Position numbers and translations under genes: made by a program
Notes under the pieces: model-generated
What the model was told of the DNA's origin: nothing
The model's database searches: none
What the model saw: the letters and a program-made list of their open reading frames with translations, nothing else
In this document: positions 2,988-12,590 of the stretch, piece by piece
Numbering within the stretch: position 1 is the stretch's first letter
Layout of the letters: the number at the start of each line of letters is the position of its first letter
Source of the DNA: an uncultured Lachnospiraceae bacterium
GTDB lineage: Bacteria > Bacillota_A > Clostridia > Lachnospirales > Lachnospiraceae
Assembly (NCBI GenBank): GCA_902796775.1
Contig: CADBQK010000322.1
Coordinates: forward strand, 1 to 12,613
DNA: 12,613 bases
Direction: 5' to 3'

Positions 2988-4103
2988 ATGATGAGAAAAG
3001 AAGATGTTTATGTAATTCACGGTACTGTGTATAAAGAAATGGCTATGCAGGTGATGGAGGAGGCTGATGTGGCTGGCGATATTGGTGACAGAAACAGGAG
3101 TATTGCCTTAAAGCCTAACCTGGTGACAGCCAGTTCACCGGACTATGGAGCAACGACTCACGGAGAGCTGCTGGATGGAGCGATTACTTATCTGCAGGAT
3201 CATGGATTTCGGAAGATCACTGTGATGGAGAGTTCCTGGGTAGGAGAGAGGACAGCAAATGCTCTTCGTAGTACGGGATATATGGAGATATGCCGCAGAC
3301 ATAATGTGCCTTTTGTAGATCTCAAAAAGGATAGTTCCCGCGAATATGATGCCAGGGGGATGCGTATACGGGTCTGTGATCTTGCGATGTCCGTTGACTA
3401 TATGATCAACATGCCGGTGCTGAAAGGACATTGCCAGACACGTATCACCTGCGCTTTGAAGAATAATAAGGGAGTGATACCGGACAGCGAAAAACGGCGT
3501 TTCCACACTTTAGGACTTCATAAACCGATTGCGCATCTGAATACCGTAGTTAGGAATGATTTTATCCTTGTGGACAATATATGCGGGGATTTAGAGTTTG
3601 AGGAAGGCGGCAACCCTGTCATCATGAACCGGGTGCTCGGGTTTAAGGATCCAGTCCTTTGTGATGCATTTGTATGCCGGAGTATGGGCTATGAACTGGA
3701 GGATGTTCCCTATATTCTGATGGCAGAAAAGCTGGGCGTTGGTTCGGCCGATTTAAGCAGAGCAGAATTTCATTATCTTAATTCAGCTTCCCGGGAACAG
3801 ATCATGAGCAATTACCGCACGGGTAAGGTCGGCAGGCTGGCGGCATATACAAATGCCGATGATGCGTGCAGTGCCTGTTACGGCATGCTGATCCATGCTC
3901 TGAACCGGCTCGATGAAAAAGGACAGCTGCCAAAAAGCCGGGGAATGGAAATGGAAAAAATCGCTATCGGACAGGGATTCCGCGGGAAAACCGGCTGTAT
4001 CGGGATAGGGAACTGTACAAAGGATTTTGAAAAAAATCTCAAAGGTTGTCCGCCGTTAGCATCTGACATTCTTTCGTTTCTTGAAAGGAGCTGGGTTCGA
4101 TGA
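2988..4103 (+). CDS. DUF362 domain-containing protein
   Basis: This 371-residue protein has the hallmarks of the DUF362 family: LKPNLV (41-46), an ESSW segment (81-84), NMPVLKGH (141-148), the LKNNKG stretch (157-162) and LVDNI...GGNP (194-210). The C-terminal region adds Cys residues at 294 and 297 (CSAC), 337, 343 and 354, the last three in a GCIGIGNC...GCPP arrangement. These could bind an iron-sulfur cluster, although no classical 4Fe-4S ferredoxin motif (CxxCxxCxxxCP) is present. DUF362 proteins have no settled function; some carry ferredoxin domains. No signal peptide or membrane helix is seen, so it is probably cytoplasmic. Two adjacent ATGs (2988 and 2991) are possible starts; the AGGG at 2980-2983 is better spaced for the second. 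Its stop overlaps the ATG of the MBL gene (ATGA), so the two are likely translationally coupled and work together. Confidence 0.85.
   Translation: MMRKEDVYVIHGTVYKEMAMQVMEEADVAGDIGDRNRSIALKPNLVTASSPDYGATTHGELLDGAITYLQDHGFRKITVMESSWVGERTANALRSTGYMEICRRHNVPFVDLKKDSSREYDARGMRIRVCDLAMSVDYMINMPVLKGHCQTRITCALKNNKGVIPDSEKRRFHTLGLHKPIAHLNTVVRNDFILVDNICGDLEFEEGGNPVIMNRVLGFKDPVLCDAFVCRSMGYELEDVPYILMAEKLGVGSADLSRAEFHYLNSASREQIMSNYRTGKVGRLAAYTNADDACSACYGMLIHALNRLDEKGQLPKSRGMEMEKIAIGQGFRGKTGCIGIGNCTKDFEKNLKGCPPLASDILSFLERSWVR
4084..4090 (+). promoter_or_regulatory. Ribosome binding site of the MBL-fold gene
   Basis: AAAGGAG lies inside the end of the DUF362 gene, 9 bases before the ATG at 4100. It fixes the MBL start at the ATGA overlap. 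Confidence 0.8.
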
Positions 4104-4917: not shown

Positions 4918-7404
4918 TTACTCGTCGACGGAATCTTCCGAAATGTAGTACTGCGGTTCAACCTTTACAGTATACTGCGTAGGATCAAGGCTTCCATCGA
5001 GCCATACCGTAAGATCCGCTCTTTCACCCTTCTCCCAGGGAGAAAGTTCATCTGAACTGCCGGCGTCAAGAGTGTTTCCATCTGAATCGATAACTGACAC
5101 ATTGACGGCGAAGTAATCAAATGTGTACGGAGAAGTATTTTCCATATGGAGAACATGTTTGCTGTTTCCGTCATCATCAGTTTCCAGGGTCAGCCGGAAT
5201 GTGCTGGCCATCTTTTTGACTTCCTCATTTGAATCGACTGCGATTACGGAAGCGCCGGCGTCTTTGATTGCGGACTCCAGAAGACCTTTATAATTATCAT
5301 CTACCTTCAGGCCGTAATCAGCAACGAATTTCTGCAGCAGCTTTGTACGATCAGCATAAGCATCGTTCCAGATGTTTACGTATCTGTCATAGTCATCTTC
5401 CATATAGGAGACTGCTTCTTTTGCTTCACGCAGAAGTCCGATGTATTCCAGAGCATCCTTTCCGAGCTCGGCATTGTCAAACTCCTCTTCCTCAAAAGGC
5501 TCCAGATGTTTCAGCTCAATGTCACAGAGCCTTTCAAAAGCGACTGCCTCATCATAATTCGGATCGGAATCATCAGATTCTTTCTGTGTCCATCTTTCTG
5601 TAAGGCCTGCAGCCATCTCTCTGAGAAATGCACCGTCCGGAGACAGCTGATAATCGCTGTCATCATACAGAGATGCAGCATCTTTATAATCACCGAGTGT
5701 ACTAAAGAGTTTTCCTGCTGTAGCATACTCCCCTTTGTCATAGTGTTCTTTTGCAAGGAGATAAGTACATTCCTTGCTCTTTTCAGCGGAATCTTTGTAA
5801 CCGCCTTCGCCTGTTTCTGCAAGAGTATCGAAAATGCCGGAAGCCTCTTCATATTTTCCTTCAGAAAGAGCCTTCTCTGCACTCTGGTATTTGCAATCCA
5901 GAAGCCTGTCCGGAGCATCCTTGTAGCTGCCCAGAGATGCGAACCCTTCTTCTGCAACATCGAAGGAACCCTCTTCAAGAGCTTTAGCTGAAGCAGAATA
6001 CAAACGCATTTTGCTGATTTCAAAGGAAGCAAAAACGGCGATGACTGCAATCGCAATGATGGCAGCTACGATACCGACCCATTTGAGCATCGGACTCTTT
6101 GCAATCTGTTTTCCTTTATCTTTAATGGAAGGCTTCGGTTCGCTGGGTGTATTCTCTTTTACTGCTGCCGGCTCCGGTTTTTGTGCTTCCGGCTTCGGCT
6201 CTTCCCTGCTCTCAGCAGGAGCCGGAGTAGGAGCGGGAGCCGGAATCGGGGCTGGTGACGGAGCAGCTTTGGAAACAGCCTTTTCCTGTACGGCATCTGT
6301 GGAAGCATCTACGGCTTTTACTGCAGGTTCAGCAGTCTTAGAGATATCCGCTTTTTCTGCAGCATCGGGGTTAACCATTCTCGCTATTGTTTTGACTGTG
6401 ATTTCAGGATCATCCTGATCTGTGTTGGCAGCAGAAGCTTTGGAAGCTGACTTGCTTTTTGATTCCAAACCAACAGCTGCAAGTATTTTGGCTATATCTT
6501 CTGAGAAAGTTCCCGGATCTGTATCTTCCGCGATGATCTCATCATCTTCATCACTATCCTCGATATCCGCTTCATCCTCCGCTGCGACGGGTTCCTCCAC
6601 CGTTTCTTCAGAGACAACCGACTCTGTTTCCTCAACAGATGTAACCTCAACCGGTTTTTCTTCAGGTGCTGCCGGCTCCGCTTCTGCCACAGGCGCTGCC
6701 TCAGGTACTGCCTCTACCTCAGGCGTCACCTCTGTCTGCACTGCTTCTTCCTCGGGCGCTGCCTCAGGGGTTATCTCTGCCGGTTCTGCTTCTTCCACGG
6801 GTACTGCCTCTGCCGGCGCTGCCTCCGGAGCTTTTGATTCAGTTGCTTCATCCGGGGCCTCTGCTTGAGGAACTGCTAACGGCTCTTCATCCAATACCAC
6901 TGGTTCCGGCTTTTCGACCGGTTCTTCATCCGGAGCCGCCGGAGCGGTTATTTCGCCTTTTTTCAGTGAGGCAGCCGTTTCAAACTCTTCACCAGAAACA
7001 CCCGGTTCACTGTCTTCATCAGAATCCTCAGTTTCAGTTACTTCTTCAGGAGCGGCTTTTTCCGGCTCTTCTTCCTGAAGAGAAGAAACAGGGGTATTAT
7101 TGATCGCTTCTTCAGGAGATGAACTTTTGTCTATTTCTATTTCTTCAATTGGATCTGTTTGATCCTTTATTGTGTTCTCCACCGTTTCTGTAATGTTCTT
7201 TACTGTTTCCGCAGGCTTTTCTTCTGCTGCCGGATCTGCTGCGATCTTTGCAGGTACTTCCGTAAGATCCACATCAGGCTTTTCAATGGTCTGTGTTTGG
7301 ATCGCTGCTTCATCAGAAACCGGCAAGGGCTGCCCGCAGACCTGGCATAACCTGTTGCTGTCTGTTACAAGTGCCTTGCAGTAAGGACATCTGATCAATG
7401 CCAT
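4918..7404 (-). CDS. Zinc-ribbon, single-pass membrane protein with TPR-like repeats and FxLYD-like C-terminus
   Basis: This 828-residue protein starts with a zinc ribbon (C6, C9, C20, C23: CPYC...CQVC). A long low-complexity segment follows (about 30-435), rich in Glu, Pro and Ala, strongly acidic, with a Pro-Ala stretch at 382-397 and a short non-repetitive island near 300-316. One hydrophobic helix (about 442-461) follows a Lys-rich segment (KDKGKQIAKSPMLK), so the N-terminus is predicted inside and the C-terminus outside. Residues 468-583 hold about three TPR-like repeats (pattern A..L..G.Y..A...F..LGdYKDA). Residues about 730-820 resemble an FxLYD-type beta domain. No catalytic motif is seen. 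A role as an envelope scaffold or sensor is inferred only. The start is supported by GGGAGG upstream of the ATG. It has its own promoter and terminator and appears monocistronic. Confidence 0.85.
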   Translation of the reverse strand: MALIRCPYCKALVTDSNRLCQVCGQPLPVSDEAAIQTQTIEKPDVDLTEVPAKIAADPAAEEKPAETVKNITETVENTIKDQTDPIEEIEIDKSSSPEEAINNTPVSSLQEEEPEKAAPEEVTETEDSDEDSEPGVSGEEFETAASLKKGEITAPAAPDEEPVEKPEPVVLDEEPLAVPQAEAPDEATESKAPEAAPAEAVPVEEAEPAEITPEAAPEEEAVQTEVTPEVEAVPEAAPVAEAEPAAPEEKPVEVTSVEETESVVSEETVEEPVAAEDEADIEDSDEDDEIIAEDTDPGTFSEDIAKILAAVGLESKSKSASKASAANTDQDDPEITVKTIARMVNPDAAEKADISKTAEPAVKAVDASTDAVQEKAVSKAAPSPAPIPAPAPTPAPAESREEPKPEAQKPEPAAVKENTPSEPKPSIKDKGKQIAKSPMLKWVGIVAAIIAIAVIAVFASFEISKMRLYSASAKALEEGSFDVAEEGFASLGSYKDAPDRLLDCKYQSAEKALSEGKYEEASGIFDTLAETGEGGYKDSAEKSKECTYLLAKEHYDKGEYATAGKLFSTLGDYKDAASLYDDSDYQLSPDGAFLREMAAGLTERWTQKESDDSDPNYDEAVAFERLCDIELKHLEPFEEEEFDNAELGKDALEYIGLLREAKEAVSYMEDDYDRYVNIWNDAYADRTKLLQKFVADYGLKVDDNYKGLLESAIKDAGASVIAVDSNEEVKKMASTFRLTLETDDDGNSKHVLHMENTSPYTFDYFAVNVSVIDSDGNTLDAGSSDELSPWEKGERADLTVWLDGSLDPTQYTVKVEPQYYISEDSVDE

Positions 7405-7571: not shown

Positions 7572-8270
7572 CTAGAACTTGAGCATTCGGTAACCTGTAC
7601 CTATATGGGTCTGGATATAAGGCTGATCATCCGGACCGGGTCCCATCTTTTTGCGCAGGGAAGCCATGTACACACGAAGAGAGGACATACTGCTTTCCCA
7701 GGTGTTGCCCCAGACTTCCATCGTGAGAAAACCGTAAGTCAGGACTTTTCCCACATTCTGGGTCAGAAGAGTCAGAAGCTTATACTCGATCGGGGTCAGG
7801 TGAAGTTCCTTCCCACTCATGGTCACGCAGCCTGCCGCATAGTCTACCTGCAGTTCTCCGTTTTCAAAGACCGGTTCCTGGTCGGCAGCCAGGGAGCGGA
7901 TATATTTCAGCCTTCTCTGGATAACCCGCAGTCTGGCCAGCAGTTCTTCCACAGAAAAGGGTTTGGTCAGGTAATCGTCTGCCCCTGCATCCAGAGCAGC
8001 AATCTTATCGGCATCTTCGCTTCTGGCACTGATCACAATGATTGGTACATTGGACCAGCCCCGGATTTTCCGGATGACTTCGACACCGTCCAGATCCGGC
8101 AGACCCAGATCCATAAAGATGATATCCGGCGGATCAGAAGTCGTCAGCATCAGGGCAGTCTGCGCATTACCGGCTGTCTGGTAGGAATAGCCGTTTATTT
8201 CCAGTGTGGTTGTAATCAGGTTCCTTACAGGAGCATCATCTTCCACTACCAGTATTTTTGTATCACTCAT
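7572..8270 (-). CDS. kdpE: KdpE-like OmpR/PhoB-family response regulator
   Basis: This 232-residue regulator has an N-terminal receiver domain with acidic pocket E10-D11-D12, phosphoacceptor D54 (MDLGLPDLDG), S81 (VISARS) and K103 (LTKPF), then an OmpR/PhoB winged helix ending in GTGYRMLKF. The segments RGWSNVPIIVISARS and DKIAALDAGADDYLTKPF closely match E. coli KdpE (225 residues). The start is set at 8270 (MSDTKILVVEDD) because AGGGAGGT lies 8 bases upstream there. An ATG at 8318 in the same frame would add 16 residues that fit no receiver domain and would lie inside kdpD. The gene overlaps the kdpD stop by 8 bases (ATGAGTGA), implying translational coupling. It should be phosphorylated by the adjacent KdpD and bind DNA. 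The likely target is the ktrB promoter region, since kdpFABC is not in the window. Confidence 0.9.
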   Translation of the reverse strand: MSDTKILVVEDDAPVRNLITTTLEINGYSYQTAGNAQTALMLTTSDPPDIIFMDLGLPDLDGVEVIRKIRGWSNVPIIVISARSEDADKIAALDAGADDYLTKPFSVEELLARLRVIQRRLKYIRSLAADQEPVFENGELQVDYAAGCVTMSGKELHLTPIEYKLLTLLTQNVGKVLTYGFLTMEVWGNTWESSMSSLRVYMASLRKKMGPGPDDQPYIQTHIGTGYRMLKF

Positions 8271-10218
8271 CTGCTGCCACCTCCCTGCCTGGTAATGCAA
8301 AACGGAAAACCGTACCATGCGGTTTTCTGTCCATTACGTCTATTGTACCATTATGGGCATCCATGATAGACCGGCACAGTGCCAGGCCCAGACCCAGGCT
8401 TCTCCTGCCGTCAGCCACCGGATTGCCGCCGGTGTAGAACATGTCAAAAGCATGTTTTTTCATTTCATCTGTCATGCCCGGTCCGTCATCTTCCACCATA
8501 ACGATCACCTGCCCGTCAGCATAATGATCGGAAATCCGGATCATGGAGTTTTCCGGTGTGTATTTGATTGCATTATTGACCAGATTGATGATCACCTGCA
8601 TGATCAATCTGGCATCCATATGGGCAAGGAGGAATTCGTCCGGATGTTTTATCAGGATGTTATGTTCGTCCCTTTTCCTGTCGATATGTTTCATAGCCTC
8701 ATCGATTACATCACTAATCAGTTCGTCTGTACAGCTTATCTGCATCTGCCTGTTTTCAAGTCTGGTAACAGACAGCAGGTTTTCCACCACTGTGATCAGC
8801 CACATGGAATCATCATAGATATCCGTATAGATCCGGCAGCGTGTATCGCCGTCCAGCATTTCCCCGCTTTCCAAAAGAGTGCTGGCATTGCCTGAGATAG
8901 AGGTCAGAGGCGTCCGCAGATCGTGCGAGATTGTGCGCAGAAGATCTGCCCGCAATTGCTCGCTTCTGGCCCGGGCAGTTGCTTCTTCCTTTTCCCGGGC
9001 ATTCCGGTCATTTTCAGCAGCCAGGGAACATTCTCCGATAATGGACAGGCAGGTTGTAAAAGCAGGTTCGTCGATTTCGGCGCTGATTCCCTCCAGACCA
9101 ATCACACCATAGATACTGGCTGCTGTACGGACTGCCAGATACATATAGCGGCATTCCGGGTACCGGCTCGTTTTAAAACCGGAACGCTCCCTGTGCTCTA
9201 ACGACCAAAATGCAGCCTTTTTCTCCAGCAAGGCTGCAGGATCATCGCTTAGCTGCGCTGTGGTGCTTTTCGCTTCTATATGATAGGGTCCATCCAGGCC
9301 TTCCCTGTCATCAGGAAAGTAGAGGAGTACACGGTTTTCCAGCATTTTGGCCAGCTGTCTGGCTCCTACGAGAAGGATCTCCCTTTCTCCTGTTGTTTGC
9401 TGCAGGAGCTGATTGGTATCAAACAGTAACTTGTTGCGGTAGGCACGGATTGCGTATTTTTCAGCATAGTCTTTCAGCTGGGAAGCCAGCAGCCCGGAAA
9501 TGATCGCTGAGAGGAACATGACCGCAAAAGTCACTGCATAGCGCCAGTCATAGGCATGGAAGGAGAATAACGGCTCAGTAAAAAAGAAGTTGAAGATGAT
9601 AACGACAGCTGCGGAAGCGATCAGTCCCCATAGCCAGCGGGAGGTCGTTACTGAGATCAGGAGTACTGTCAGAATGTAGAAGGTAATGATATTGGATTCG
9701 AGCAGTCCGGCCCTCCTGAAAACAAAACCGGTCATGGTGGCACCGGTCAGAAAGGCGGCTGTAATCAGCAGATCGCGCCGGATCATCAAGGATCCGGTGA
9801 CCTGTTTCTGTATCTGGTATCTGCTTTTCCCGGTCTTGTCCGGGATAATGAAAACGGAGATCTCCGGAACAGCTTCGATCAGACGCTGGGACAGATCTTT
9901 TTTCAGTACGATATGGAAACGGCTCGAAACACTTTGGCCGATGACGATCCGGCTGACCCCGTTGATACGGGCATACTGGGCCAGCCCTGTCACAACATCC
10001 GGCGCATAAACCTTTTCGATTTTTGCCCCGACTTGCTCCGCATAGCGGATATGCTCCTCAAGCATAGTCTGCTGTGCAGGTGTCATCGTTTTCATCGATG
10101 GTGTCTCCACGTACACTGCCAGCAGATCCGCACCAAAAGCAGCGGCCATTTCTGCGCCAGCCTGGATGATTCCTTTATTGGAAGGAGAGGATGACAGACA
10201 GATCAGAAAATGTTCCAT
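8263..10218 (-). CDS. kdpD: KdpD-like sensor histidine kinase, short form lacking the N-terminal KdpD domain
   Basis: This 651-residue kinase, against 894 in E. coli KdpD, begins directly with a universal stress protein domain (about 1-127, IVIGQS at 91-96). It continues with a four-helix DUF4118 membrane block (about 150-247), a GAF-like segment (about 270-400) and a HisKA dimerisation helix with H432 in TISHDLRTPL. The HATPase domain has N545 and N549 (N box), DDGPGM at 577-582 (G1) and SLGLGLAL at 607-614 (G2). All catalytic motifs are intact. The missing part is the cytoplasmic KdpD domain with its Walker-like motif. The sequence upstream of the ATG is a repeat array with no open frame, so this is the natural start. 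A weak AGAAGG lies 12 bases upstream. In the USP domain, S9-x-S11, 20 residues, then LLAVY resembles the c-di-AMP motif reported for S. aureus KdpD. It should sense K+ status and phosphorylate the overlapping KdpE. Confidence 0.9.
   Translation of the reverse strand: MEHFLICLSSSPSNKGIIQAGAEMAAAFGADLLAVYVETPSMKTMTPAQQTMLEEHIRYAEQVGAKIEKVYAPDVVTGLAQYARINGVSRIVIGQSVSSRFHIVLKKDLSQRLIEAVPEISVFIIPDKTGKSRYQIQKQVTGSLMIRRDLLITAAFLTGATMTGFVFRRAGLLESNIITFYILTVLLISVTTSRWLWGLIASAAVVIIFNFFFTEPLFSFHAYDWRYAVTFAVMFLSAIISGLLASQLKDYAEKYAIRAYRNKLLFDTNQLLQQTTGEREILLVGARQLAKMLENRVLLYFPDDREGLDGPYHIEAKSTTAQLSDDPAALLEKKAAFWSLEHRERSGFKTSRYPECRYMYLAVRTAASIYGVIGLEGISAEIDEPAFTTCLSIIGECSLAAENDRNAREKEEATARARSEQLRADLLRTISHDLRTPLTSISGNASTLLESGEMLDGDTRCRIYTDIYDDSMWLITVVENLLSVTRLENRQMQISCTDELISDVIDEAMKHIDRKRDEHNILIKHPDEFLLAHMDARLIMQVIINLVNNAIKYTPENSMIRISDHYADGQVIVMVEDDGPGMTDEMKKHAFDMFYTGGNPVADGRRSLGLGLALCRSIMDAHNGTIDVMDRKPHGTVFRFALPGREVAADE
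8279..8286 (-). promoter_or_regulatory. Ribosome binding site that fixes the kdpE start
   Basis: The minus strand reads AGGGAGGT 8 bases before the ATG at 8270, inside the end of kdpD. This favours the internal start over the upstream in-frame ATG at 8318. Confidence 0.8.
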
Positions 10219-10238
10219 AGTATAATTGCGCCTTCTTC

Positions 10239-10386
10239 CATACTTGGTTTACCACAGTATGCTTTCGCCAGAGCATATCTAGTATCAGAGTGTACTATTG
10301 CCAGGATATACTATGCCTAAGTATGCTTCTGCCAGAGTATACTGTGGTCAAAGTATATTTCATTCCAGATTATACTATAGTATACT
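10239..10386 (-). repeat. Degenerate 16-bp tandem repeat array between ktrA and kdpD
   Basis: On the minus strand about ten copies of an AGTATACT-like 8-mer follow one another. The main block is spaced 17, 16, 16, 15, 16, 16 and 17 bp; the first pair is 10 bp apart and the last 19 bp. The 8-base spacers are often CTGGCA-like, giving a rough 16-bp consensus AGTATACTCTGGCAAT. The array fills the whole gap from the ktrA stop to the kdpD leader. The core is itself a palindrome, which suits a DNA-binding protein site, but a decaying minisatellite is equally possible. There is no spacer diversity of the CRISPR kind. Confidence 0.7.
10251..10348. repeat. 13-bp inverted repeat inside the 16-bp array
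   Basis: ACCACAGTATGCT (10251-10263) and AGTATACTGTGGT (10336-10348) pair over 13 bp with one mismatch, enclosing 72 bases. The extra ACCAC/GTGGT bases go beyond the array consensus, so the symmetry is more than a by-product of the palindromic core. Confidence 0.55.
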
Positions 10387-10399
10387 ATCTAACTGGCAA
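10369..10399 (-). promoter_or_regulatory. Weak candidate internal promoter for kdpDE
   Basis: The minus strand has TTGCCA (10394-10399, within the last codons of ktrA) and TATAAT (10369-10374) with a 19-bp spacer. Both hexamers are good but the spacing is long. Many TATACT-like copies in the array could also serve as -10 boxes, so the assignment is tentative. Confidence 0.3.
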
Positions 10400-11057
10400 A
10401 TCTGCCAGCTTTCTTTCCAAAACAGCGGTGAATATCTTCATGACTGCCCAGAAGAAGGACGATCTCATCTTTCGAGAAAACAAACTCCGGCCCAAGAGTG
10501 ATTACCATACCTGTTTCATTTTTAACTGCCAGAACATTGAGGTGATATTTCTGCCGGATATTTAAATCGCTTATGGAATGCCCGACCCACAACGGAGGTA
10601 CGGCGATTTCATAGACAGCATATCCATCACTGAGTTCAAGGTAGTCAAATACATTATCGGATCCTACCCGCATAGCGCTCCATTCTGCCATCTGTTTTTC
10701 CGGGAAAACGACTTCATCCGCACCGTTGCGCAGGAGCAGGTTTTCCTGCATGCTTTTGGCAGCGCGGGCAAACACATACTTTGCGCCAAGCTCCTTAAGG
10801 AGCGATGTAGTCTCCAGAGAGGCCAGGTAGTCATCCCCGATGGCGACGACACATTTGTCGAAATTCCCGATGCCAAGCGATTTGAGAAATTCCTTATTCG
10901 TGCTGTCACCGATTTCTGCACTGGTCACATAAGGTTCGATCATCTGTACACGCTCTTCACTTCTGTCTACAGCCATGATCTGGACATTCATTTTGGATAA
11001 TTCCTGTGCGATTCTGATACCGAATCTGCCGGCTCCGATAAGTAAGATATTGATCAT
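10389..11057 (-). CDS. ktrA: KtrA/TrkA-type RCK gating subunit of K+ uptake
   Basis: This 222-residue cytoplasmic protein has one RCK_N Rossmann domain (IGAGRFG at 7-13, acidic D31 at the end of the second strand) and one RCK_C domain (about 146-214). That is the single-RCK length of KtrA (about 220) rather than the double-RCK E. coli TrkA (458). KtrA-type rings bind ATP/ADP or NAD(H) in the Rossmann fold and gate the KtrB channel; the RCK_C domain of several Firmicute homologues binds c-di-AMP. It follows ktrB by 87 bp on the same strand and precedes kdpD, consistent with one operon. The start is supported by AAAGGA about 7 bases upstream of the ATG. The only oddity is the repeat array directly after its TAG stop. 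Annotation as trkA would be equally acceptable. Confidence 0.9.
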   Translation of the reverse strand: MINILLIGAGRFGIRIAQELSKMNVQIMAVDRSEERVQMIEPYVTSAEIGDSTNKEFLKSLGIGNFDKCVVAIGDDYLASLETTSLLKELGAKYVFARAAKSMQENLLLRNGADEVVFPEKQMAEWSAMRVGSDNVFDYLELSDGYAVYEIAVPPLWVGHSISDLNIRQKYHLNVLAVKNETGMVITLGPEFVFSKDEIVLLLGSHEDIHRCFGKKAGRFAS

Positions 11058-11144
11058 TTCTGTTTCCTTTCTTTTCTTCTCTCAACCATCATAATAGAGT
11101 ATAAGCAAATGCATATCTGTTCTTCGAACGCAGGTCATTTTCTT

Positions 11145-12470
11145 TTACCCTACCATGATCTTTTCCGGTGTATAATGAACGTGGCTGTTGGTAATGCCGG
11201 GTATAATGGCATAGACCAGTGTCAGGCTGCCGACTCTTCCGAAGAACATCAGAAAAATCAGGATCAGTCTCGATACGACATGCAAAGAACCGGTGATCCC
11301 GAGCGATAACCCGACAGTTCCTATTGCAGATGCTGTTTCAAACAAACAGATATGCAGCGAGAGACCTTCGAATTCACTGATGATCATGCCGCTGATCAGG
11401 AACAGGCCCAGATACAGTCCGCATACAGTGCAGGCATAGCGCACGGTTTCCATGTCGATCCGATGTTTCATACAATGTACTTCGTCACATCTGAGTACAA
11501 CGGAGCGACCGCAAAGAAGCAGTACCGCCAGTGTAGTAATCTTCATTCCGCCGGCAGTAGACCCGGGGGCGGCTCCGATCAGCATCAGTATGGTCAGGAT
11601 ACTCTGGCCGGTATCGTTAAAATTGTTCAGATTCAGAGAATTGAAACCGGCCGTTCTGGTGGTTACGGACTGAAACAGTGCTCCGAGTAAGCGTTCCTTT
11701 AGGGGCAGGTCACCTAATTCTGCAAACAGCAGGATGGCCGGCAGCAGTATCAGAGCAGCAGTCATAATCAGGATCAATCTGCTCTGGACCCGGAGTTTTC
11801 GTATCTTTCCTTTATGCTGAATGAGATCCTGCCAGGTAATAAACCCCAGACCGCCGGATATGATCAGTCCCATGATGACAAACAGGACCAGTGGGCTGCT
11901 GCAGTATTTCATTAGAGAAACACCATACCTGCTTACGCCTAAAATGTCAAAACCGGCATTGCAGAATGCTGAAATCGAGTGGAAGATACTGTACCAGATT
12001 CCCCTTACTAATCCGTATTCCGGGATAAAACGAATGGCAAGGAGTGCTGCGCCCAGTGCCTCGACTCCCAGGACGAATCGGATTATAAAGAGCATAAGCC
12101 TTACGATTCCGCCAAGCTGATGGGCTGAAACGGCATTCTGCAGGATATTTCTCTGCATCAGGCCAATTCTTCGTCCTGTAAAAGCAGCAATCGAAGCCGC
12201 GACAAGCACAACTCCCAGACCGCCAATCTGAATAAGCAGCAGAATAATGACCTTGCCGGTCAATGACCAGTATGCAGCAGTATCGCATACGGTCAGTCCC
12301 GTTACACACACAGCGGATGTTGTGGTAAACAATGCTGTGAGGGGATCCGTCCATCTGCCCGCGTGGGAGGATACAGGGAGCATCAGAAGAAAAGTGCCGC
12401 AGACAATGATCCAGGCAAACCCAAACAGAATGATCTGAAAAGAAGATAGTTTTAGTTTTCTGAATATCAT
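11145..12470 (-). CDS. ktrB: KtrB/TrkH-type K+ channel subunit
   Basis: This 441-residue integral membrane protein has the four pore-loop repeats of the TrkH/Ktr superfamily. The filter glycines lie in SAVCVTGLTV (G58), SAFCNAGFDI (G173), TTRTAGFNS (G275) and SAIGTVGLS (G387). The GAAPGSTAGGMK segment near 299-310 is the conserved stretch before the later helices. Hydrophobic helices run throughout, and length matches KtrB (about 445). It conducts K+ (possibly Na+-coupled) across the inner membrane together with the RCK subunit encoded next. The start is placed at 12470 (MIFRKLKL) because AGGAGG lies 9 bases upstream. An in-frame ATG at 12503 has no ribosome binding site and sits inside a hairpin. 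It is the first gene of the presumed ktrB-ktrA-kdpD-kdpE operon. Annotation as trkH is an alternative name. Confidence 0.92.
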   Translation of the reverse strand: MIFRKLKLSSFQIILFGFAWIIVCGTFLLMLPVSSHAGRWTDPLTALFTTTSAVCVTGLTVCDTAAYWSLTGKVIILLLIQIGGLGVVLVAASIAAFTGRRIGLMQRNILQNAVSAHQLGGIVRLMLFIIRFVLGVEALGAALLAIRFIPEYGLVRGIWYSIFHSISAFCNAGFDILGVSRYGVSLMKYCSSPLVLFVIMGLIISGGLGFITWQDLIQHKGKIRKLRVQSRLILIMTAALILLPAILLFAELGDLPLKERLLGALFQSVTTRTAGFNSLNLNNFNDTGQSILTILMLIGAAPGSTAGGMKITTLAVLLLCGRSVVLRCDEVHCMKHRIDMETVRYACTVCGLYLGLFLISGMIISEFEGLSLHICLFETASAIGTVGLSLGITGSLHVVSRLILIFLMFFGRVGSLTLVYAIIPGITNSHVHYTPEKIMVG

Positions 12471-12479
12471 AATCAGTAT

Positions 12480-12485
12480 CCTCCT
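12480..12485 (-). promoter_or_regulatory. Ribosome binding site that fixes the ktrB start
   Basis: The minus strand reads AGGAGG, 9 bases before the ATG at 12470. It moves the start 11 codons downstream of the longest open frame. Confidence 0.85.
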
Positions 12486-12489
12486 GTTT

Positions 12490-12507
12490 AAAAATGGCAG
12501 CATTTTT
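12490..12507 (-). promoter_or_regulatory. Small hairpin next to the ktrB ribosome binding site
   Basis: AAAAATG and CATTTTT form a perfect 7-bp inverted repeat around GCAG, four bases upstream of the AGGAGG. It is AT-rich and weak. It could modulate translation or be chance. Confidence 0.35.
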
Positions 12508-12539
12508 CCGAAATTCCTGTATTTAGTATGCCTCTCTGC

Positions 12540-12590
12540 TTATAAAAACAGTATTAAAGATACCCGCTGCGGTATTAAAATTGTATAAAG
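12540..12590 (-). promoter_or_regulatory. Helically phased T-rich direct repeats upstream of ktrB (candidate KdpE site)
   Basis: GTATTAAA occurs at 12551 and 12572 (21 bp apart), with related copies TTATAAAA at 12540 and GTATAAAG at 12583, so copies fall 11, 21 and 11 bp apart. On the minus strand these read as TTTATAC and TTTAATAC direct repeats. OmpR/PhoB-family regulators bind direct repeats of about 10-11 bp, and the E. coli KdpE site is, as recalled, a TTTATA/TTTACA type repeat. A possible -10 (CATACT, 12525-12530) lies downstream. Regulation by the local KdpE is inference. Confidence 0.45.

Follow-up and report, generated by a model that had tools for sequence, protein, structure and literature searches.

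A degenerate 16-bp tandem array in the ktrA-kdpD gap of an uncultured Lachnospiraceae bacterium, probably not a KdpE operator

Why should the gap between a potassium transporter gene and a sensor kinase gene be filled by a phased, AT-rich repeat, and does this repeat act as an operator? The question is raised by the ktrA-kdpD gap of an uncultured Lachnospiraceae bacterium (assembly GCA_902796775.1, contig CADBQK010000322.1), which was analysed in a stretch of 12,613 nucleotides, here called the window. Four genes of this locus share the minus strand: ktrB (11145-12503), identified by domain matches as a KtrB-type potassium transporter (TrkH), ktrA (10389-11057), a KtrA-type potassium transporter subunit (TrkA_N, TrkA_C), kdpD (8263-10218), a short KdpD-type sensor kinase (DUF4118, HisKA, HATPase_c), and kdpE (7572-8318), a KdpE-type response regulator of the OmpR family. 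The true start of ktrB is likely later than this call, since the three closest proteins among the matches listed are 441 aa long. The KdpD of the window has 651 aa and gave no match to PF02702, the N-terminal domain of KdpD, which most of the 120 relatives listed possess; it starts where, in full-length relatives, the region after this domain begins. The order ktrB-ktrA-short kdpD-kdpE was found in six of 80 loci, the best 80 of the 285 detected in a KdpD contig scan, and further cases came from whole genomes. Elsewhere in the window are encoded a neighbouring DUF362 protein, whose few named relatives (Clostridiales, Lachnospiraceae) suit a probable Lachnospiraceae-like source, an 828-aa protein (4918-7404) in which a zinc ribbon is matched weakly at the N-terminus, under the Pfam cut-off, and which has a long P/E/A-rich stretch of low complexity, and a Cys-containing repetitive protein of at least 908 aa (1-2727), with repeats like CTEAGKEADQKCSRCGE, which is probably a surface protein.

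The ktrA-kdpD gap is filled by a degenerate tandem array on the minus strand (10219-10386). Its main part consists of eight in-phase units, each AGTATACTCTGGCA plus a linker (10245-10376, minus strand), whose first sense bases lie at plus-strand coordinates 10376, 10359, 10343, 10327, 10312, 10296, 10279, and 10263, so that the steps along the kdpD-sense strand are 17, 16, 16, 15, 16, 17, and 16 bp. Unit boundaries were set by hand and verified on the window sequence; an automatic chain agrees with them except for the last unit. The linkers measure one to three bases, and five after the last unit. Beyond the in-phase block, a perfect AGTATACT is located on the ktrA side, shifted by 10 bp from the phase of the array (10379-10386, no strand assigned), and two degenerate copies on the minus strand follow on the kdpD side, AGTATGGA after a 19-bp step (10237-10244) and ATTATACT after an 18-bp step (10219-10226), the latter touching the kdpD start codon. 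The preliminary description had counted about ten phased copies of a minus-strand 8-mer. Ten matches to the core do exist, but only eight units are in phase, and the three copies at the edges are degenerate or out of phase; copies do reach both edges of the gap, although the end near 10240 is weak. The conserved unit is 14 bp rather than 8. Because the core AGTATACT is a palindrome identical to its own reverse complement, the strand of the array can be read solely from the CTGGCA after the core, and this reads in the kdpD direction. The same CTGGCA occurs in an inverted repeat, CTGGCAGATTTGCCAG, at the 3' end of ktrA (10393-10408, minus strand), which is terminator-like only if read on the plus strand. 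A reading of the array as 32-bp modules, that is, pairs of half-sites, was attractive by eye and was dropped, as units at even separations were not consistently more alike.

The array is real and more regular than chance. Between 10219 and 10388 there are ten matches to AGTATACT with at most two mismatches, compared with a mean of 2.7 and a maximum of 9 in 5000 dinucleotide shuffles, and five of the ten have their next match at 15-17 bp, which at most three did in the shuffles. A motif-free period score, in which any 8-mer of the sequence may serve as seed and any period from 10 to 33 is allowed, reached 27.6 at period 16, above all 6697 shuffles (mean 15.2, maximum 24.2), which bears out the phased repeat of about 16 bp reported earlier. 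Gapless autocorrelation was weaker because of the indels in the array: lags 15-17 were matched by 2 of 5000 shuffles and any lag from 8 to 40 by 9 of 2000. Tandem Repeats Finder, at a minimum score of 30, did not list the array. Among 1070 non-coding windows of 126 loci, one scored at least 27.6, a KdpE-like array near position 3281 of locus L033; the two can fairly be compared, as the array itself, placed on the 40-bp grid used for these windows, gives 27.6 at all four phases tried. On a coarse 85-bp grid, the array frames scored 23.0 and 21.2; a frame of low-complexity coding sequence at 6886 reached 23.2. The copy GGCATACT near 12525, which had been noted earlier as similar to the array motif, is at chance level, with 59 matches at no more than two mismatches elsewhere in the 12.6-kb window.

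One candidate for a binding protein is KdpE, which is encoded in the same locus. In E. coli, the KdpE operator of kdpFABC is described as TTTATA plus TTTACA, 6-bp direct repeats 5 bp apart, in which the two leading T of each half-site are reported to be invariant across genera (PMC3264566). A box of the form CTTTATAC-NN-TCTTAATAC was found upstream of ktrB in 49 of 53 distinct regions of relatives (at most four mismatches; shuffles, 7 of 1060); only ktrB matches above 40% identity and with more than 200 bp of upstream sequence were retained. Pairs of TTTA-type hexamers upstream of ktrB, the window included, number 26 at 10 bp and 30 at 11 bp, against 0-5 at 7-9 and 12-14 bp. Several relatives have a second box pair about 20 bp on; loci L001, L024, L036, L056, and L104 are among those with a box. 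A position weight matrix (PWM) was built from those 46 of 50 distinct boxes that had at most four mismatches, L006, L070, L114, and L116 (5-6 mismatches) being left out. In the window, it scores 27.0 for CTTTATACAATTTTAATAC upstream of ktrB (12572-12590, minus strand) and 5.4, the second-best value, for a weaker pair, TTTAATACTGTTTTTATAA, just downstream of this main box (12540-12558, minus strand). The conserved box upstream of ktrB resembles the E. coli site, and KdpE may be its binder. A description of a KdpE-like box upstream of ktrB was not found among the literature matches listed.

An operator array through which KdpE controls kdpDE is, in the light of these sites, very improbable for the ktrA-kdpD gap. 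It would be favoured by the presence of kdpE in the locus, by the TATAC common to the array and the KdpE half-site, and by one relative with a phased KdpE-like array, L033, a Butyrivibrio MAG whose extended array before ktrA (3300-3415) contains half-sites in both orientations at steps of about 11 bp. However, the half-sites of the box are 10-11 bp apart, the box was found in none of the 17 distinct ktrA-kdpD gaps of relatives shorter than 720 bp at four mismatches or fewer (lowest 5), and the best PWM score within the array is -6.0, rank 36 in the window. The best candidate for a KdpE site is thus not matched by the array. Its step is 16 bp, whereas that of the E. coli operator is 11 bp, and its units are without the leading TT of that operator (PMC3264566), although both are AT-rich direct repeats near potassium uptake genes and both contain TATA; the KdpE-like box of the window lies apart from the array. 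The KdpE operator was therefore rejected on the PWM scores and on the conservation of the box at ktrB rather than in the gaps, the array is probably not an operator of this protein, and the earlier suggestion of an operator array for kdpDE fails if KdpE was meant.

The occurrence of the array was then compared across genomes. In 17 distinct ktrA-kdpD gaps of relatives, the AGTATACT chain score ranged from 7.6 to 15.4, and in the gap of the window it was 30.0; out of 14 regions fetched, L103 and L106 yielded no such gap, and that of L111 (906 bp) exceeded the 720-bp limit. The best 200-bp chain in the 126 loci (1.02 Mb, overlapping loci included) scored 21.6, compared with 31.6 in the window. 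A two-unit pattern with at most three mismatches gave four matches in 397 genomes of one family and eight for the reversed control, thus no enrichment. Six stretches of viral contigs match the pattern (rough chance estimate, about 3), with a best AGTATACT chain of 20.6, and a KdpD search of the viral contigs gave none. No description of the array was found among the literature matches listed. Relatives with the same gene order that lack the array, which the preliminary description had named as speaking against its proposal, do exist, but those found have a KdpD of at most 49% identity. The best identity in the contig scan was 48-49%, and no KdpD above 49% was found in genomes of the order (295), of the phylum (398, with P0002 as query), or of one family (250, 200, and 397; overlapping samples). 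Closer KdpD relatives, at 75, 71, and 67% identity (P0002-P0004), were compared as proteins only; as the nearest DNA compared belongs to relatives of at most 49% KdpD identity, the array could still be common to these relatives of 67-75%. Many of the relatives' gaps inspected by eye contain a TATAAT-like element ahead of kdpD as well as a small open frame; the frame, which probably encodes a membrane-type protein, appears to be present in L001, L017, L024, L036, L056, L098, L107, L110, and L112 and is absent from the window.

On balance, we consider the array to be somewhat more probably than otherwise a degenerate, lineage-specific tandem repeat of minisatellite type. A unit near AGTATACTCTGGCANN would have been duplicated head to tail about eight to ten times in the ktrA-kdpD spacer, by slippage or unequal recombination, and the units would then have decayed through point mutation and small indels. 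The mean identity of the eight units to their consensus is 81% (91/112), consensus and units being drawn from the same eight hand-cut copies, which favours the units somewhat, and the 21 of 112 positions that differ comprise 16 transitions and 5 transversions. This excess of transitions has P = 7e-5 under random letters, where one third would be expected, and P = 0.80 for 16 or fewer when 70% are transitions. Convergence alone would not be expected to produce such a bias, from which we infer, indirectly, descent from one unit and an origin by duplication. Neutral decay with four random indels was simulated at three rates, 400 runs per rate. In 3.5-8.5% of runs (joint P 0.035-0.085), the units were as similar as those of the array or more so, and at the same time the linkers varied as much or more; the lowest value, 0.035 at the highest rate, is borderline. 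As neutral decay gives such values, the evidence that the 14-mer is constrained is suggestive at best, and the simulation points to little strong present constraint on the array. Of the three readings offered earlier (operator array, cluster of -10 boxes, decayed minisatellite), the minisatellite is thus the best supported, by the transition bias and the simulation. The array would then most likely be passive spacer DNA within the ktrBA-kdpDE locus, the KdpE control point of which would be the box upstream of ktrB, and its TATACT/TATAAT cores may incidentally supply RNA polymerase with -10 elements for kdpD.

Several observations speak against this repeat reading, and some of them would suit an operator for kdpDE bound by a protein other than KdpE, an explanation that we regard as unlikely, though it is the main rival. 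It supposes a 14-bp head-to-tail site at every 1.5 turns of DNA, so that every second copy (32 bp) would lie on the same face and allow cooperative binding. The array fills the gap exactly, its period score exceeds that of all shuffles, CTGGCA is conserved in one direction, all variation in length can be assigned to the short linkers, as expected of a constrained 14-bp site, and the palindromic core would suit a dimer. Transitions would also be tolerated by a protein that recognises the purine/pyrimidine shape of its site, and the KdpE-like operator of L033, the one stretch that scores as high, indicates that a phased array can have a function in loci of this kind. Against such an operator, single cores elsewhere in the window occur only at chance level, the array is missing from the 17 gaps of relatives, the unit is not enriched in the 397 genomes of one family, and the observed variation could also arise by the neutral decay simulated above. 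A more specific proposal is that this protein, at 1.5-turn spacing, sets the expression of kdpDE without involvement of the KdpE box upstream of ktrB, the response being tuned by copy number. We consider this doubtful; if true, the array would represent a head-to-tail arrangement of 1.5 turns, unusual beside the 10-11 bp step of OmpR-family sites. A cluster of -10-like elements that forms a diffuse kdpD promoter is decidedly improbable. Promoter-like sites, defined as -35 and -10 hexamers 16-18 bp apart, are enriched in the array, which likewise counts against the repeat reading: four weak sites occur in 10219-10410, three of them on the kdpD strand, compared with 0.7 +/- 0.8 in shuffles, and the TATAAT-like sequence seen by eye in relatives stands shortly before kdpD. 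Yet all four sites match at just 9 of 12 positions, without a TG ahead of the second hexamer, and over 10150-11200 the same four sites, all in or at the array, compare with 2.4 +/- 1.5 in shuffles. By unit arithmetic, the distance from CTGGCA to the following TATACT within the repeat is 4 or 20 bp instead of 16-18, and any 16-bp repeat containing TATA would give -10-like matches, whatever its origin. The cluster of -10 boxes suggested earlier was kept as a minor alternative.

Two further explanations, a mobile element and a structured RNA, were considered and judged less likely still. It is highly improbable that the array is the internal minisatellite of a MITE or another palindromic mobile element, in the manner of BrickBuilt. 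Two pairs of inverted repeats do share a centre near 10298-10300, with arms 77% and 74% complementary, and the arm alignment score of 60 was reached by none of 1000 dinucleotide shuffles (maximum 52); shuffles of the spacers, however, reached it in 32 of 2000 cases (mean 44), a small excess, and the symmetric palindromic cores alone yield most of the symmetry. Without gaps, the centre 10316 matches better, part of the outer left arm falls within the coding start of kdpD, where the protein sequence is conserved in P0002, and there were no dispersed copies in the window or the 126 loci and no excess in the 397 family genomes. An RNA element in the ktrA-kdpD transcript is likewise highly improbable. 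It is the opposite strand that forms a better fold than its shuffles do (z -3.8, none of 200 as good), whereas the kdpD-sense strand is unremarkable (z -1.4, 18 of 200 shuffles as good), and no Rfam family matched the array at the gathering score.

Among known systems, bacterial minisatellites and VNTRs such as BrickBuilt come close to the array, both being short intergenic head-to-tail units. BrickBuilt of Porphyromonas gingivalis is a 23-nt repeat without spacers that occurs 19 times in one genome, inside a MITE (PMC4596501), whereas the array has a 16-bp unit with small linkers, is heavily decayed, and is known here from one copy. The OmpR-family regulator RR_1586 of C. difficile has an 11-bp direct repeat (PMC6222199); its sites are arranged head to tail like the units of the array, but with a period of 11 instead of 16.

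As it stands, the array may be regarded as a modest example of a repeat that expanded and then decayed within a locus for potassium uptake. Of greater use is a by-product of the analysis: the KdpE-like box conserved upstream of ktrB in loci of Clostridia type, from which targets of KdpE there can be predicted.
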